Part shown: positions 31,547 to 42,321 of the stretch, in pieces
Layout: every line of letters starts with the position of its first letter
How positions within the stretch are numbered: the stretch's first letter is position 1
Position numbers and translations under genes: made by a program
The notes under the pieces: generated by a model
Told to the model about the DNA's origin: nothing
Databases searched by the model: none
Seen by the model: the letters and a program-made list of their open reading frames with translations, nothing else
Origin: Pseudobdellovibrionaceae bacterium
GTDB lineage: Bacteria > Bdellovibrionota > Bdellovibrionia > Bdellovibrionales > UBA1609
DNA length: 64,000 nucleotides
Direction of reading: 5' to 3'
Assembly (NCBI GenBank): GCA_947444305.1
Contig: CANEZP010000009.1
Location: forward strand, 62,001-126,000

Positions 31547-33562
31547 CTAGCGTGAATCACGGAAATTCGCCGCGACGTGGGAGTTGTCGCAAATAGGTTT
31601 GTTTTTAGATTGACCACAGCGGCACAGGCGGGTGCCTTCCGTCCTTAAGACCACCCGGCCGGTGCCGGCGCAAATTTCAAGGTTACCGGACACCTTGAGC
31701 GGCCCGTCGTCGAGTCGTTCGATCGTTAACTTTCCATTGCGGACCGAGAGGGTTGTGTCGTCCATCGTTGGAGGCTCGCCCGTAGCCGTAAACTTAGCCG
31801 CGTTGTGGGAGCCATCGCAGAAAGGTTTATTGCCTGACTGGCCACACCGGCACAAAGTCGCGCGCATTCCTTCTCCTTTGCCGTCGATTTCGAGCGCGCC
31901 GAGAAAAGCATACGGTCCGTTTTCGCGGGTTCGCATGAGGTTCACGTCCGGCGTCTTTTCGTTCGCCCCGCCGTCCTTGCGCCGGTATTGAATCGCACCC
32001 GAAGGGCATTCGCGCGCGACGGCGGCTAAAATTTCGGGAGTCGTGTTCTCGGCGAAGATCCATTTGCCCGGTGTGTTCGCTTTAAAAACATTCGGCAATT
32101 CGGTGACGCAGTGGCGGGAATGGATACATTTTTTCGCGTAAAACTTCAGTTCAATTTGGTCGGTTTCAGAAATCTCGACGTCCGCCCCGCTCGGGGGCGG
32201 GACCGTCGACGGCGTTGCTGTTTCCCGGACTAATTCCGCCTCGGGTGCGTTCGTGTATGGGGCTCGGGATTTTGCGAATCCGGGCATCGCCGCGATCTCA
32301 TGATTAAGTCCGGCAAGTGCTTCCGTGGCTTTCGCAATTTGATTCTTGCATGCAAGGACCCGGGAATTTTGCGTTTTGCCTTGTTCCAAATCTTCCCGCA
32401 AGCCGGTCATCATCTGAATGATCTGCGTAAGCCGCTCACTTAGAATTTCCTTCTCGGTGAAGCGATCAAGTGGTGTGAGCGCGCGCACCATCGCGAAGCT
32501 CATCCCGGCAAGAACGTCTTGATTTTCGTCCGTGGCGGGAAGGTAAGTCAGTGTCTCACCGACTACGGCCATGGCGTGCATTAAACCGTAAGAGACGCTG
32601 AGCAACGTCGCTTTGGCAGATTTAGGGCGCTCTTCAACCGCGTAGATCTGCACGAGAACCCGCAGCATCATGCCGTACAAAGAGTTAGCCAAATCCAAGT
32701 AGCGCGCCGATTGCTCATGCGTGACCCATACGCGGTGCTCGGGATTGATCGGCTTACGCATCACGGGATTACGCGCGACGGTTCTGGCGGGCTCAAAATT
32801 CGGATTCTGTTTTAATAATTGGTCGTACTCTTTTTTAATGCCTAAAAAACGCTGGAAGTGTGAATCTTCGACGTCGGCCGCGCCTTCACCTTGCGTAATA
32901 ATGACGTCGATCGCGGCGAGCGCTTCCGCCTTCGTGGTGATCGTCGACAAGCCGGGTAGGGGGGAATCCAGCGGTCCGATTTGTTGCGCTTTCGAACCGC
33001 ACAACAATTCTTTTTCGCCGAAACGGGAACATAGATTATCGAACGCGCCGCGAATACTTTCGTAAAGGGCGCCCACGGTTTTGTAGTCGCCGGCACTCGG
33101 CATAAGCCGGCCTTTTTGCGCCATCCGCGTGTACTGTTGTTGCGGCTCGAAAGATTCGCCGTCTTTGAGTTCCATCGAACGGGGCCGCTCAAGGAAAATG
33201 AAATGTTCGAGCGTGTTCATATCGAACTTCGCGAGTTCAATCACGATGTTCGCGGGGTAAAGCCCCGGCAGCGAAGGGAAGTTCGGCCGCATGAAGTGCG
33301 GGGTCACGCCGATCGCCGTCATCAGGTTTGCGACGAGGGTAAGGTGATTCATCTCTTCCAGCGCAATGCTCAAGATCACTTTACGCCAACGGGCGATGGC
33401 TTCGAGCTCTAGAGCCGACACTCCTTCGGATTCTTCCCGTTTTAAAGAGAACATCGCGTAGAGGTACAAGCACATCAGATTGTGCTCGGTCTCGGCGGCC
33501 TCGGCGAGGGCGTTGTAAAGCTGGAGTCTTGACTCAATGACGTAGGAGGATGTTAATTCCAT
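31547..33562 (-). CDS. Ferritin-like / Fer4_19 / double CDGSH protein
   Basis: A 671-residue multi-domain protein. Residues about 10-230 are a ferritin-like helical domain of the VioB/iminophenylpyruvate dimer synthase type (AETEH and LEEMNH give the di-iron ligands). Residues near 490-550 form a mono-cluster ferredoxin-like domain (KKCIHSRHCV ... CPSGAI). The C-terminal 110 residues carry two CDGSH iron-sulphur motifs: CRCGQSGNKPFCDGSH and CRCGQSKNKPICDNSH; the second has Asn for Gly. It joins iron and iron-sulphur centres in one chain, pointing to redox or iron sensing. ATG at 33562; divergent from the DsbA-like gene. Confidence 0.9.
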   Translation of the reverse strand: MELTSSYVIESRLQLYNALAEAAETEHNLMCLYLYAMFSLKREESEGVSALELEAIARWRKVILSIALEEMNHLTLVANLMTAIGVTPHFMRPNFPSLPGLYPANIVIELAKFDMNTLEHFIFLERPRSMELKDGESFEPQQQYTRMAQKGRLMPSAGDYKTVGALYESIRGAFDNLCSRFGEKELLCGSKAQQIGPLDSPLPGLSTITTKAEALAAIDVIITQGEGAADVEDSHFQRFLGIKKEYDQLLKQNPNFEPARTVARNPVMRKPINPEHRVWVTHEQSARYLDLANSLYGMMLRVLVQIYAVEERPKSAKATLLSVSYGLMHAMAVVGETLTYLPATDENQDVLAGMSFAMVRALTPLDRFTEKEILSERLTQIIQMMTGLREDLEQGKTQNSRVLACKNQIAKATEALAGLNHEIAAMPGFAKSRAPYTNAPEAELVRETATPSTVPPPSGADVEISETDQIELKFYAKKCIHSRHCVTELPNVFKANTPGKWIFAENTTPEILAAVARECPSGAIQYRRKDGGANEKTPDVNLMRTRENGPYAFLGALEIDGKGEGMRATLCRCGQSGNKPFCDGSHNAAKFTATGEPPTMDDTTLSVRNGKLTIERLDDGPLKVSGNLEICAGTGRVVLRTEGTRLCRCGQSKNKPICDNSHVAANFRDSR

Positions 33563-33600
33563 AAATTTTCCGGAACCTAACACTTCGCAGGAGTTTGATC

Positions 33601-34834: not shown

Positions 34835-34898
34835 GGGCGTCCAGGACTGTCCTTTCGTGATTTCGCATCCTGCGAAATCACTGCGGACCGCCGACTCG
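34835..34898 (+). repeat. tRNA-3'-end-related repeat, copy A
   Basis: The block opens with GGGCGTCCAGGACTGTCC and ends with CTGCGGACCGCCGACTCG, around a variable interior that is a perfect hairpin (34857-34881). The first 14 bases match the 3' end of the tRNA-Met gene at 36156. Copy B at 36024 has the same ends but a different interior. Confidence 0.75.
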
Positions 34899-34954
34899 TC
34901 GCTAAGTCGCGCATCGTGCGCGACTTACCACGCTAAACCCGCCACCGGCGGGTT
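34857..34954. repeat. Three perfect hairpins with 3-base loops
   Basis: Three stem-loops follow one another: 34857-34881 (11 bp, GTGATTTCGCA / TGCGAAATCAC, loop TCC), 34903-34927 (11 bp, TAAGTCGCGCA / TGCGCGACTTA, loop TCG), 34936-34954 (8 bp, AACCCGCC / GGCGGGTT, loop ACC). None has a T tract. They lie between the start of the DUF2461 gene and the end of a minus-strand gene. Confidence 0.8.
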
Positions 34955-35084
34955 CATCGTGGCCGCCTTTTTTGCAAGGATAGCTGAAGAGCGATCGTGA
35001 ATCGTGTTAAAACGTTCGACAAATTCGCTTGAAGCAAAACAAAAAGCAGTTGATGCGCATATTGAGTAGACTACCGAGCCCGGC

Positions 35085-35501
35085 TCAAAGCCTGTCAAGG
35101 GTGAACTCGTAACGACGTCTCAGGAAAAGCTCGACGGCTGCTTCGAAAGTGGAATCAGTTGGTTTCACTTCCTTATAATAAGTACCGAGGATTCCCTTCT
35201 CTACATCTTCTGACGGCGGCGTTGTCGGAACGTGAACATAGTGTTCTTCATTGATTTTTTGAACGATGTGTTCGAATTCTTCACGGTGTTCTTCGTCTAT
35301 CTTTAGGAGAACAATCCTGTTGCCCTCCGCAAACCTAAGCCGCCCGATCTCTTTGCCGGTTTGCACCGATTTAATGGCGTAGATCTTCTCGCGGGTTAAA
35401 CGGCGAAAAAGGAATACACTGGTCGCGACGATGATGAGTCCTAAGAAGACTACCAGGCTGATCTTCAAGTCAAACCCCCTTCGCTTTTTAAGCATCAACA
35501 T
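35085..35501 (-). CDS. Hypothetical membrane-anchored protein
   Basis: A 138-residue protein: basic N-terminus (MLMLKKRRGFDLK), one hydrophobic span (residues about 14-32, LVVFLGLIIVATSVFLF), then a charged soluble domain (NRIVLLKIDEEHREEFEHIVQKINEEHYVHV). It should sit in the inner membrane by a single N-terminal helix. Base composition is lower in GC than the neighbours, and it lies between two tRNA-end repeats, so it may be transferred DNA. Confidence 0.55.
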   Translation of the reverse strand: MLMLKKRRGFDLKISLVVFLGLIIVATSVFLFRRLTREKIYAIKSVQTGKEIGRLRFAEGNRIVLLKIDEEHREEFEHIVQKINEEHYVHVPTTPPSEDVEKGILGTYYKEVKPTDSTFEAAVELFLRRRYEFTLDRL

Positions 35502-35512
35502 TTCCGCAGGTT

Positions 35513-36018
35513 TTGACCACCGGAAGTTGGATTATAGTTGAACACGCTCATCTTTCAACTGCAGGCTCAAAAGAGTTATTCTTCAGTCGGGCCTTTTTAA
35601 ACACGAAACTGACAAATCAAATTATCACGGTACGATCGCACAGGGTTAATTCAGCCGAAAAGCTTACTACCGTAACGAAACCAATGACATTCGGCTTTGT
35701 GCAGATGCCATTGAAGAAGAAGCGAAAAAGATTGTCGGGCAAATAGTGCGAGGTTCAAAGCCGTTCCAACAAGCGTTGGTTAAAAGCGTTACCGGCATTT
35801 CAGACGCAAAAGACATCGCAACTCGCCAACGGAAAATTACGGTCGATGAAATCAGTGAGATTGAAGCTACCGGACGAGCTGCTGCGAAGCGGTTCGATCT
35901 TTTCTTTAGCGATCTTCGTGACGACTTCAGAAGCCGATGGCGTCGCTGTTCTCAACTTCGTTCTCCGCAACGGAGAAACTGCGGGCATAACTTTGGAGGG
36001 AAAAAGGAGCTTTGGTGA
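35513..36018 (+). pseudogene. Possible degenerate gene between tRNA-end repeats
   Basis: One plus-strand frame reads protein-like text across most of the stretch: KRVILQSGLFKHETDKSNYH, then a TAA near 35646, then KAYYRNETNDIRLCADAIE and QALVKSVTGISDAKDIATRQ up to about 36018. No good start or ribosome site is found and the family is unknown. It may be the remains of a transferred gene, or noncoding. No intact gene is supported between 35502 and 36155. Confidence 0.3.
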
Positions 36019-36023
36019 TGAAA

Positions 36024-36082
36024 TGGTAGGGCGTCCAGGACTGTCCTTCGTTGCGCTCGCTTCACTGCGGACCGCCGACTCG
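36024..36082 (+). repeat. tRNA-3'-end-related repeat, copy B
   Basis: TGGTAGGGCGTCCAGGACT at 36024-36042 is identical to the final 19 bases, CCA included, of the tRNA-Met gene (36156-36174). It continues GTCCTTCG...CACTGCGGACCGCCGACTCG as in copy A. It is not a full tRNA: the remaining arms are absent. Confidence 0.85.
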
Positions 36083-36155
36083 GCCGCCCTCGAATTTTGC
36101 GTCTTCGTTCGACTATTTTCGATTTTTGAATGTTCTATTTTCGAGCCGAAGGCTT

Positions 36156-36232
36156 TGGTAGGGCGTCCAGGACTCGAACCTGGGATCCGACGGTTATGAG
36201 CCGTCTGCTTTAACCAACTAAGCTAACGCCCC
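36156..36232 (-). tRNA. tRNA-Met (anticodon CAT)
   Basis: A complete 77-base tRNA with encoded CCA. Read on the minus strand it starts GGGGCGTTAGCTTAGTTGG, has the anticodon stem GACGG / CCGTC around loop CTCATAA, and a T arm with GGTTCGAGTCC. The acceptor stem pairs in full with a G1-U72 end. CAT could be elongator Met or the lysidine-modified Ile2; initiator is unlikely because the anticodon stem lacks three G-C pairs. A good sigma-70 promoter lies upstream. Confidence 0.95.
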
Positions 36233-39666: not shown

Positions 39667-39820
39667 GTGAACTCATCGGCAAAGAACCGCATTCCCGTGA
39701 CTAAAGTCGTCTCAATCCGAAACGTTCTCGCACCAAAATCGTCACTCCGTTTTGTTTAAGGGGCGGGCGATACTGATTTCACACACGGATTCACAAACGA
39801 ATCCTAACCGGGGGGAACTT

Positions 39821-41185
39821 TTGCAACAGTCTAAACTCAAAGCGGGGATGTATCTATTGGCGGCGGCGATCGGGATCAACGCCGGCGCGGCTGAAATCGC
39901 GGCCACCGCGATCAAGCAAACGGTCGGCACCAAAAACGGCCGCGTGAGCGCGCTGACCAAAGAAGGAGAAGGTTCCTTCGTGAGCTTGTACACGAGCGGT
40001 AGGGGATCGCTCAACGCCCAGTTCACCTTTTCGCAGGCCAACGCGAAGGGTTTAACTTTGCAAGCCGTCTTGAAGCAAAACACGGCCGCCGACAAATTCA
40101 TCTTCGAAGTTTTGGACTCAGGCACTTGGAAAGCCGTCGGCCAAAGTGCGGGCGGTACGGGCTTCAAAAAGATTTCGCTCTCGCTTCCGGATTCGGCCGC
40201 GGCGGACGGGTCGGTTTCCGTGCGGATGGTGGCCACTAATTCGGACGACTTGTCGCTGGATCAATTGATCCTCGTGTCCGGTTCGCCGTCGGCGCCTACG
40301 CCGGCCCCGGTTCCGCCGGTCGTGGTTAATCCGGCCCCCATGCCGCCGGTGATCGTACCTCCCGTTGTCGTCGCACCGGTTCCCGTTCCTGTGCCTCCGG
40401 TGACCAACCCTCCGGCCACCGGTATCCGGTTGCCTCCCAACGGCAAGATCTCTTGGGACTGGCAAATCGGCGCTTCGGGTGACAACGCGATCGTCGCACC
40501 GGCCGGCGTGAAGTTGCTAGATGTCGATGTGTTTAGCACCTCGGCCGCGAAAGTGGCTCAGTTAAAAGCGCAAGGCGTTTACACCGTTTGTTACATCAAC
40601 GCCGGCAGCTACCAGCCCGGTCTTCCGGATTCGGCGCAGTACCCGGCGTATTTGAAGTTACAAAAAGATCCCGATTGGGCCGGCGAATACTTCTTGGACG
40701 TTACCGATGTGTTCAAAGCTAATTCGGCGCTGGCTTCTATCCTTAAAGCTCGCTTGCAACTGTGCAAAGACAAAGGCTTCGACGCCGTCGAACCCGACAA
40801 TTTGCAGAACGACGAAAACATCAAAGGTGGTTTGATCAGCACGCAACAGCAGATCGACTTTAACGGCTGGTTTGCCGACACCGCCCACGCTTACGGCTTA
40901 GCCGTGTTCCAAAAGAACGGTCCCGACAAAATTTTATTGAAAGACCGCACGGGCAAAATGATGGTCGATAAATTCGACGGCATCTTGAACGAAGAGTGCC
41001 AACAGTACGACGAATGCCAACCGCTGAATGAATACGTCAAACGCGGTAAGCTGGCGCTCAACGTTGAATACGCGGTAGCACCGAATTGTTCTCTGTCGAA
41101 TATGCTGAACATCAACACGATTCGCAAAGACTTGAACTTAACCGGCGGAAACATGAGCGGCTACAAACGTTTAACATGTCCCTAA
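39821..41185 (+). CDS. GH114-type endo-alpha-1,4-polygalactosaminidase
   Basis: A 454-residue exported protein. Start TTG at 39821 after GGGGGGAA; a signal peptide ends near NAGAAE. Residues about 30-160 form a beta-sandwich-like domain, then a Pro/Val linker (about 165-205), then the GH114 (TM1410-like) barrel: ISWDWQIG, LLDVDVF, VCYINAGSYQPG, and the acid-bearing GFDAVEPDNL. Family members hydrolyse galactosamine polymers such as those in fungal and Pel-like matrices. The protein probably acts outside the cell. It overlaps the next gene by 10 bases. Confidence 0.85.
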   Translation: MQQSKLKAGMYLLAAAIGINAGAAEIAATAIKQTVGTKNGRVSALTKEGEGSFVSLYTSGRGSLNAQFTFSQANAKGLTLQAVLKQNTAADKFIFEVLDSGTWKAVGQSAGGTGFKKISLSLPDSAAADGSVSVRMVATNSDDLSLDQLILVSGSPSAPTPAPVPPVVVNPAPMPPVIVPPVVVAPVPVPVPPVTNPPATGIRLPPNGKISWDWQIGASGDNAIVAPAGVKLLDVDVFSTSAAKVAQLKAQGVYTVCYINAGSYQPGLPDSAQYPAYLKLQKDPDWAGEYFLDVTDVFKANSALASILKARLQLCKDKGFDAVEPDNLQNDENIKGGLISTQQQIDFNGWFADTAHAYGLAVFQKNGPDKILLKDRTGKMMVDKFDGILNEECQQYDECQPLNEYVKRGKLALNVEYAVAPNCSLSNMLNINTIRKDLNLTGGNMSGYKRLTCP

Positions 41186-42321
41186 GTGAGATTCCGCGGG
41201 GAGACTTATTCCCCGCGTTCTTTTTTCCGATTAAGCTATATATAAGACGGGGGTCCCGAATCGCGCACCTTACGAAAAAAGCCGGCTACGCGGTACTCGC
41301 GTTGTTTATCGTGCTGGCGAATCAAAACTGCGATCACCTCTCCGCTCGTCAGGGGCAAGGCCCAAATCAAAAGTCACATATCGGCATCTCGGCCGCAAAC
41401 GGCGGGCAGCCTTACGACGGTAAACCTTTTATCGTGCCGGGCCTGTGCGCCGACGGTACGCTCGTCGATTCGCGCATCGTTCCTACCAAAGACGGCGGCG
41501 TTGTTTACCGCGAAGCCTGCCGCACCATTAATCCACGTAAAGTTTCGAAGAGTGAAATCGAAATCAACTCGGCCCAAGACAATCTCATTTATAAGGGCCG
41601 CAACTATTCGGTAGAAAAGCCGGCGATCCCTTTGCCCGGCGTGATCTCGTGGGTTTTGCAGCTCACCGGTTTGTTGCGAGACGAACCCGCCGATATCTAC
41701 ATCATCGATATGTTCGGTAACGATGCGGCCAAAATTCAGGCGCTCAAAGATTCGGGCCGCACGGTCTTGTGCATGATGTCCGCGGGCACGGCCGAAAACT
41801 GGAATCCCGATTACGCTTCGTTCACGAACGCCGATAAAGGCAACCAACTCATCAGCGGCGAGCGGTGGGTCGACATACGCTCGGCTAACGTGCGTGCCAT
41901 CATGCTCGCGCGCATGGACCTAGCGAAACAAAAAGGCTGCCACGGCATCAACTTCGACGCCGTCGACGGCTTCGTCAACACGACCGGTTTCCCGCTCACG
42001 AAGGCGTTGCAACTTGAATACAATCAGTTCTTGGCCTTCGCCGCGCATGACCGGCATCTGATCATGGCTTTAAACGGCGTCGCCGATTTAGCCGAAGAAC
42101 TCTCCGGCGTATTCGAACTCGCCGTCGCCGAGCAATGTTTTCAGTACGGCGAGTGCGGCAAATACCAATCCTTCATCACTCGCGGCAAACCCGTCTTAGC
42201 GTACGAATATACGGCGAAATCCGCCGGCCAGTGCGCGCAAGCCGCGAGTTCCTTGATCTCACTCGCGTACCTGAGCCCCTCGCTGGATGGCTCCCGCTAC
42301 GAAACCTGCCAAAGACCTTGA
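41176..42321 (+). CDS. Second GH114-like glycosidase
   Basis: A 381-residue protein beginning at ATG 41176, inside the end of the first GH114 gene. An export signal (AVLALFIVLANQNC) sits unusually far from the start, at about residues 38-55. The domain at about 155-381 shows the same barrel order: GVISWVLQLTG, IYIIDMFG, VLCMMSAGTAENW, and CHGINFDAVDGF. The WDWQ and EPDN positions have changed (SWVL, DAVDG), so activity or substrate may differ. Four-base style coupling suggests the two enzymes are made together. Confidence 0.75.
   Translation: MSLSEIPRGDLFPAFFFPIKLYIRRGSRIAHLTKKAGYAVLALFIVLANQNCDHLSARQGQGPNQKSHIGISAANGGQPYDGKPFIVPGLCADGTLVDSRIVPTKDGGVVYREACRTINPRKVSKSEIEINSAQDNLIYKGRNYSVEKPAIPLPGVISWVLQLTGLLRDEPADIYIIDMFGNDAAKIQALKDSGRTVLCMMSAGTAENWNPDYASFTNADKGNQLISGERWVDIRSANVRAIMLARMDLAKQKGCHGINFDAVDGFVNTTGFPLTKALQLEYNQFLAFAAHDRHLIMALNGVADLAEELSGVFELAVAEQCFQYGECGKYQSFITRGKPVLAYEYTAKSAGQCAQAASSLISLAYLSPSLDGSRYETCQRP

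Follow-up and report, generated by a model that had tools for sequence, protein, structure and literature searches.

The window, a 64-kb stretch of genomic DNA, carries a tRNA-Met (CAT) gene at 36156-36232 on the minus strand (identified with ARAGORN and an Rfam search) to which two short repeat units are linked. The last 19 nt of this gene, TGGTAGGGCGTCCAGGACT on the plus strand, recur exactly at 36024-36042, and 14 of those 19 nt (GGGCGTCCAGGACT) are repeated at 34835-34848. Both extra copies lie downstream of the gene in its own orientation and run on into GTCC...CTGCGGACCGCCGACTCG around differing interiors; read in the direction of tRNA-Met, a block CGAGTCGGCGGTCCGCAG...GGAC precedes each copy. 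The original prediction had described these copies and their common block, and sequence comparison bears out both points. The exact blocks are absent elsewhere in the window (shuffled sequences give 0.00 and 0.15 matches), and the search of the whole 4.17-Mb genome proposed at the time finds them only at these two sites.

Downstream of the tRNA gene, an AT-rich spacer (36090-36155, minus strand) aligns at 74% identity with tRNA-Arg(TCT) and its flank. AT-rich CGAAAATAGAAAATCGA repeats of this kind stand directly behind several tRNA genes of the source genome (the window spacer, L017, L026, L037 and L043), and other tRNAs bear a second recurrent flank resembling GGTCGGCTTGCTGCCTCCCCA. Unit 1 follows at 36024-36089 on the minus strand. 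It ends in a perfect copy of the tRNA-Met 3' end (36024-36042; tRNA positions 58-76 with CCA, 100% identity), but most of its core has been lost by internal deletion, as recognized by alignment to unit 2 and to an element behind tRNA-Ala. What remains of the core (36043-36089) is the outer part of hairpin P3 (GTCC..GCGGAC) and a GACGAGTC-type block. Unit 2, also on the minus strand, occupies 34835-34966 and comprises hairpin 1 (34927-34963) and hairpin 2 with its CACGAUG loop (34904-34926), both matched by the covariance models R1 and R2 described below, hairpin P3 (34849-34888; GTCCGCAGTGATTTCGCAGGATGCGAAATCACGAAAGGAC), matched by R2, and the 14-nt partial copy (34835-34848; tRNA positions 58-71). 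Its R2 match spans 34848-34966 with 77.9 bits and an E value of 5e-21, all three hairpins being kept; its copy has lost the final 5 nt.

The units are separated by a 1.06-kb segment (34967-36023) containing a single ORF (35085-35501, minus strand) that encodes 138 amino acids, has a hydrophobic N-terminal stretch when judged by eye and gives no Pfam match. This segment is not part of a unit. The original prediction had treated the 1.2-kb interval between the copies as the meaningful unit, possibly left over from an element that had integrated at the tRNA; that view finds no support, as the interval is simply DNA between two repeat units, and the unit is instead the 60-130 nt hairpin block preceding each copy. 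Its further remark that no integrase is present proved accurate, both for the 1.06-kb segment, with its one sizeable ORF of note, and for the window locus. At the tRNA-Asn gene of the same genome (G000; L084/L086, C6:149778-151327), two complete units enclose a 1.3-kb segment judged by eye to be protease-like, a layout similar to the unit-segment-unit arrangement in the window. Elsewhere in the window, two adjacent overlapping ORFs at 39752-42321 (plus strand) both encode GH114 (PF03537) proteins, and in one ORF at 31547-33583 (minus strand) a ferritin-like domain is fused to a divergent 4Fe-4S domain and two CDGSH stretches.

Complete members of the family defined by R2 carry an arm antisense to their own tRNA, and such an arm is absent from both window units. 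We file them as decayed family members on the basis of core and copy; unit 1, too short for R2 scoring, was assigned through its alignment to unit 2. With most of the core gone from unit 1 and the antisense arm from unit 2, both are decayed and probably dead. The description of the family comes from better-preserved copies at other loci.

A family of structured units behind tRNA genes

Searching for exact blocks alone was misleading, and it was BLAST together with covariance models that exposed the family. Within the source genome, BLAST recovered a diverged relative of the block at 34835 behind tRNA-Ala(GGC) and a sequence like the tRNA-Met flank behind tRNA-Arg(TCT). A copy of the gene's own 3' end of at least 10 nt, direct or inverted, lies no more than 400 nt downstream of 13 of the 38 tRNA genes in this genome. 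Covariance model R1, built from six source-genome units, found the family in other genera; a second model, R2, draws on 13 units from six genomes. Matches to R1 or R2 occur in 7 of the 31 genomes of the same taxonomic family, and R2 has matches in 27 of 119 genomes across the order and in 89 of 369 across the phylum Bdellovibrionota, distributed over about ten or more families. The suggestion of a new kind of tRNA-derived repeat in the original prediction was thus close to the mark, the window blocks being members of a phylum-wide, tRNA-linked repeat family.

A tRNA gene on the same strand is detectable upstream of 62 of 79 matches, mostly at a distance of 25-160 nt, and several of the other matches lie at contig ends. 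Units occur behind many different tRNAs, with one to several per locus, and once behind tmRNA (L160 in G158, 1066-1433), where the arm matches the tmRNA T-arm, so any RNA gene bearing a T-arm may be a target. Among named genomes, a pattern scan combined with R2 located further tRNA-linked units in Bacteriovoracaceae, Desulfuromonadaceae, Desulfuromusa, Geobacteraceae and Elusimicrobiota. Three pattern hits on viral contigs had neither an R2 match nor a tRNA and were set aside as chance. The distribution is patchy, units being missing from most searched genomes, close relatives included; Bdellovibrionales bacterium RHO3_bin_17 (G004), which kinship ranks put in the family of the source genome, carries about 17 matches and its related genomes none. 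Units stand behind approximately one-third of the tRNA genes in some genomes.

The canonical order is the tRNA, usually a terminator, a stretch antisense to the T-arm, a core of about 120 nt with several hairpins, and a copy of the last 16-21 nt of the gene; the unit itself amounts to 150-240 bp of non-coding DNA. The antisense arm covers the T-loop and the 3' side of the T-stem of its own tRNA, sometimes the whole 3' end, and the copy stops exactly at the end of the gene, whether CCA is encoded or not. The clearest example lies behind tRNA-His of RHO3_bin_17 (L072), where a terminator is followed by GGGACTCGAA, antisense to the T-loop and T-stem of that tRNA, then by the core and by CGAGTCCCGTCGATCGCCC, the 3' end of the same gene; here the units repeat with a period of 200 bp. 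Such tandem arrays recur in the family, and the spacers carried by tandem units are identical. A terminator-like stretch separates tRNA and core at 38 of 62 loci, and the core may therefore be only weakly transcribed. Terminators resembling those inside units also follow tRNAs that have none.

Arms are matched to their own tRNA well beyond chance: the observed total is 469 matches, whereas the highest of 2,000 shuffles gives 360. In the source genome, inverted matches of at least 12 nt link 8 of 38 tRNAs to their own flank, compared with 0 of 1,334 pairings with swapped tRNAs. Compensatory change is seen in 33 of 36 core pairs. Pairing holds in 92.7% of cells, a share that drops to 72.3% on shuffling and to 35-43% on sliding, and the covariation score reaches 0.672, the comparison value being 0.273; alignments made with a covariance model lean to the modelled structure. 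G-U pairs greatly outnumber A-C mismatches in hairpin 1 (91:3) and hairpin 2 (8:1), from which it follows that folding takes place in the tRNA-sense strand, RNA being the simplest form. The outer stem formed by arm and copy is symmetric (G-U 21, A-C 19), which fits a stem set at the DNA level, through copying or correction. The alignments behind these mismatch counts were fitted to the model, although hairpins 1 and 2 offer little scope for shifting. Several hairpin loops contain GGA, and CGA often stands in its place. The R2 model is usable as a new RNA family for annotation.

Proposed spread among tRNA genes and competing explanations

Kinship among cores follows the genome. Of 39 cores from genomes with units at several tRNAs, 27 have their nearest relative beside another tRNA in that genome, and for only 8 of 53 cores is it found at the same tRNA in another genome. 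Cores therefore travel or are swapped among tRNA genes, their ends being re-matched to each tRNA, and gene conversion could also produce clustering of this kind. Comparison with relatives, another step proposed with the original prediction, shows that in two congeneric genomes the orthologous tRNA-Met locus, recognized by a conserved upstream LMF1-family gene, has no unit; the window repeats are thus lineage-specific. Likewise, tRNA-Met is followed by a unit in one genome (G016) and by a terminator without a unit in another (G102), and the sequences beyond the unit are unrelated. We infer insertion rather than observe it, because no clean junction between filled and empty sites was found among the window relatives, in the G016/G102 pair or at the tRNA-Gln loci of a probably Bdellovibrio-like genus, where the difference between filled and empty sites involves an island.

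The 3' ends of tRNA genes are classical attachment sites. In this Bdellovibrio-like genus (g38), a unit is located behind tRNA-Gln (L224, L227 and L225). A large-serine-recombinase island (PF07508, PF13408) sits between tRNA-Gln and the unit in two genomes, G084 and G100, and in a third (G056) its remnant lies behind the 3' copy of the unit. The copy therefore appears to act as a second, spare attachment site for islands, which bears on how islands choose their sites beside tRNA genes. To this extent the idea of integration at tRNA 3' ends in the original prediction survives, in that the 3'-end copies seem to be alternative insertion sites. We considered this island as the driver of the units and rejected it, since the two share sites but are distinct elements. 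The units proved to be tied to no transposase, reverse transcriptase or integrase that we could find.

On balance, we think it likely that the window blocks are decayed members of the tRNA-linked repeats (TLRs) and that the units are small, structured, non-coding elements that spread; for the family, a spreading structured element is the most likely reading, ahead of an ordinary prophage remnant. The main rival dispenses with mobility altogether, deriving the units from local duplication of tRNA 3' ends with gene conversion and attributing the upkeep of the arm to quasi-palindrome correction against the nearby tRNA. The identical spacers of tandem units, the homogenization of cores within genomes, the DNA-like symmetry of mismatches in the arm-copy stem and the unit-type terminators behind tRNAs without units would all fit such a process. 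However, the core has no counterpart in tRNA and so cannot have its source in tRNA duplication, and purely local events account poorly for units at many unrelated tRNAs and at tmRNA, or for a genome with some 17 matches whose relatives have none. We regard this rival as unlikely.

Two further explanations were weighed. If the units were remnants of ordinary phages or islands, the repeats would be att sites and the 1.2-kb interval the element, in keeping with the habitual use of tRNA 3' ends by such elements and with the serine-recombinase island found at tRNA-Gln and apparently at a repeat copy. This is very improbable for short, covarying, non-coding units whose antisense arm an att site does not need, whose core recurs at many tRNAs without any island and whose intervening segment in the window has one ORF of note and no integrase. 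Alternatively, the unit could belong to the host as a regulatory RNA derived from the tRNA trailer, a sponge or a factor in processing or quality control kept for its benefit to the cell. The RNA-like tolerance of G-U pairs, the strong covariation and the GGA loops are all compatible with this idea, as is the finding that the E. coli repeats RrA, RrB and RrF are expressed and that they interact in vitro with Hfq and CsrA, a binding reported for these alone (PMC8144298). Among E. coli TLRs, transcription and processing into an sRNA have been shown for a few members only (PMC8144298). Against it stand the absence of units from most genomes and from close relatives, the frequent replacement of GGA by CGA, the many decayed units and the lack of a known function for most E. 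coli TLRs (PMC8144298). We consider a host-owned RNA improbable.

Under the preferred reading of a spreading structured element, each unit would be a small non-autonomous element moving among tRNA genes, its spreading form being a folded single strand, probably RNA, of the tRNA-sense strand. Pairing of the antisense arm with the T-arm would aim the unit, and insertion would duplicate the 3' end of the gene, which is proposed to leave the tRNA intact. Copying or palindrome correction would then re-fit the arm to each new tRNA, and recombination between 19-nt repeats would allow tandem arrays to grow. The arm may also be selected merely for pairing with the unit's own 3' copy. Read-through transcripts might be cut at the copied 3' end, in line with a proposal made for the rrnB repeat of E. 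coli. Reverse transcription of mature tRNA is disfavoured as the source of the copy, because copies of genes that do not encode CCA also lack it. In the window, unit 1 has lost its middle, and the 1-kb segment parts it from unit 2. More tentatively, TLRs in general might be gene-free selfish elements shared across phyla, inserted at tRNA-like genes under the guidance of folded RNA or single-stranded DNA whose antisense arm would recognize the T-arm of its target, with duplication of the 3' end, acquisition of a new arm and an enzyme supplied in trans. If the units do move, they would be elements without genes that base pairing directs to the cell's most conserved genes.

Relation to known tRNA-linked repeats

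E. coli has been known since 1978 to carry repeats linked to tRNA genes; to our knowledge, these repeats have been named only in that species, and there is no agreement on their origin or function. The version described here is distinct, covaries strongly, occurs in at least three phyla and has arms fitted to the individual tRNA, so that the origin of TLRs becomes testable through comparative genomics. In E. coli, 22 TLRs at ten loci carry 18-19 bp identical to the 3' end of the upstream gene (PMC8144298). The 178-bp repeats of tyrT and those at proK and in the lys operon share the position and layout of the family, forming tandem arrays and occurring at several tRNA loci, and the K-12 repeats at tyrT/V, proK, lys and rrnB all run from gene through spacer or terminator and core to a copy of 18-19 nt. 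An antisense arm is plain behind tyrV, for example GGGGAAGGAT. However, the E. coli core differs in sequence and hairpins, the tyrT repeats reaching 7-9 bits with R2, and the new family occupies more tRNAs per genome and lies in other phyla.

Within Rfam, RtT (RF00391) is the family that takes in the tyrT, proK and lys repeats of E. coli. Its gathering score of 45 bits is reached in none of 192 Bdellovibrionota genomes, the best match scoring 28.2 bits; in an Rfam scan, no family covers the window units and no RtT match falls on the family units tested. That best match is a unit behind tRNA-Ser (L260 in G332) that also scores 14.2 bits with R2 and starts with GGGATGAGAAC, as do the E. coli proK and tyrT repeats, making it a possible bridge between RtT and the new family. 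A weak R2 match (14.7 bits, E value 0.003) is found in the E. coli rrnB T1-T2 stretch (L185), the source of much-used terminators, which is itself a TLR. RrA, RrB and RrF resemble the family in having a terminator, a core with a CAGGACG loop and an 18-bp copy of the 5S end, and differ in being shorter, linked to 5S rRNA and placed between the terminators T1 and T2. With the integrative elements found at tRNA 3' ends the units have in common the duplicated tRNA 3' end but, unlike them, contain neither an integrase nor other genes, possess a structured core and an antisense arm, and measure only 150-240 bp. Because the layout is alike, yet RtT misses the family and R2 sees the E. coli repeats weakly, the family is, as judged from these sequence comparisons, a new, cross-phylum variant of the TLRs, and common descent of its cores with those of E. 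coli is plausible.
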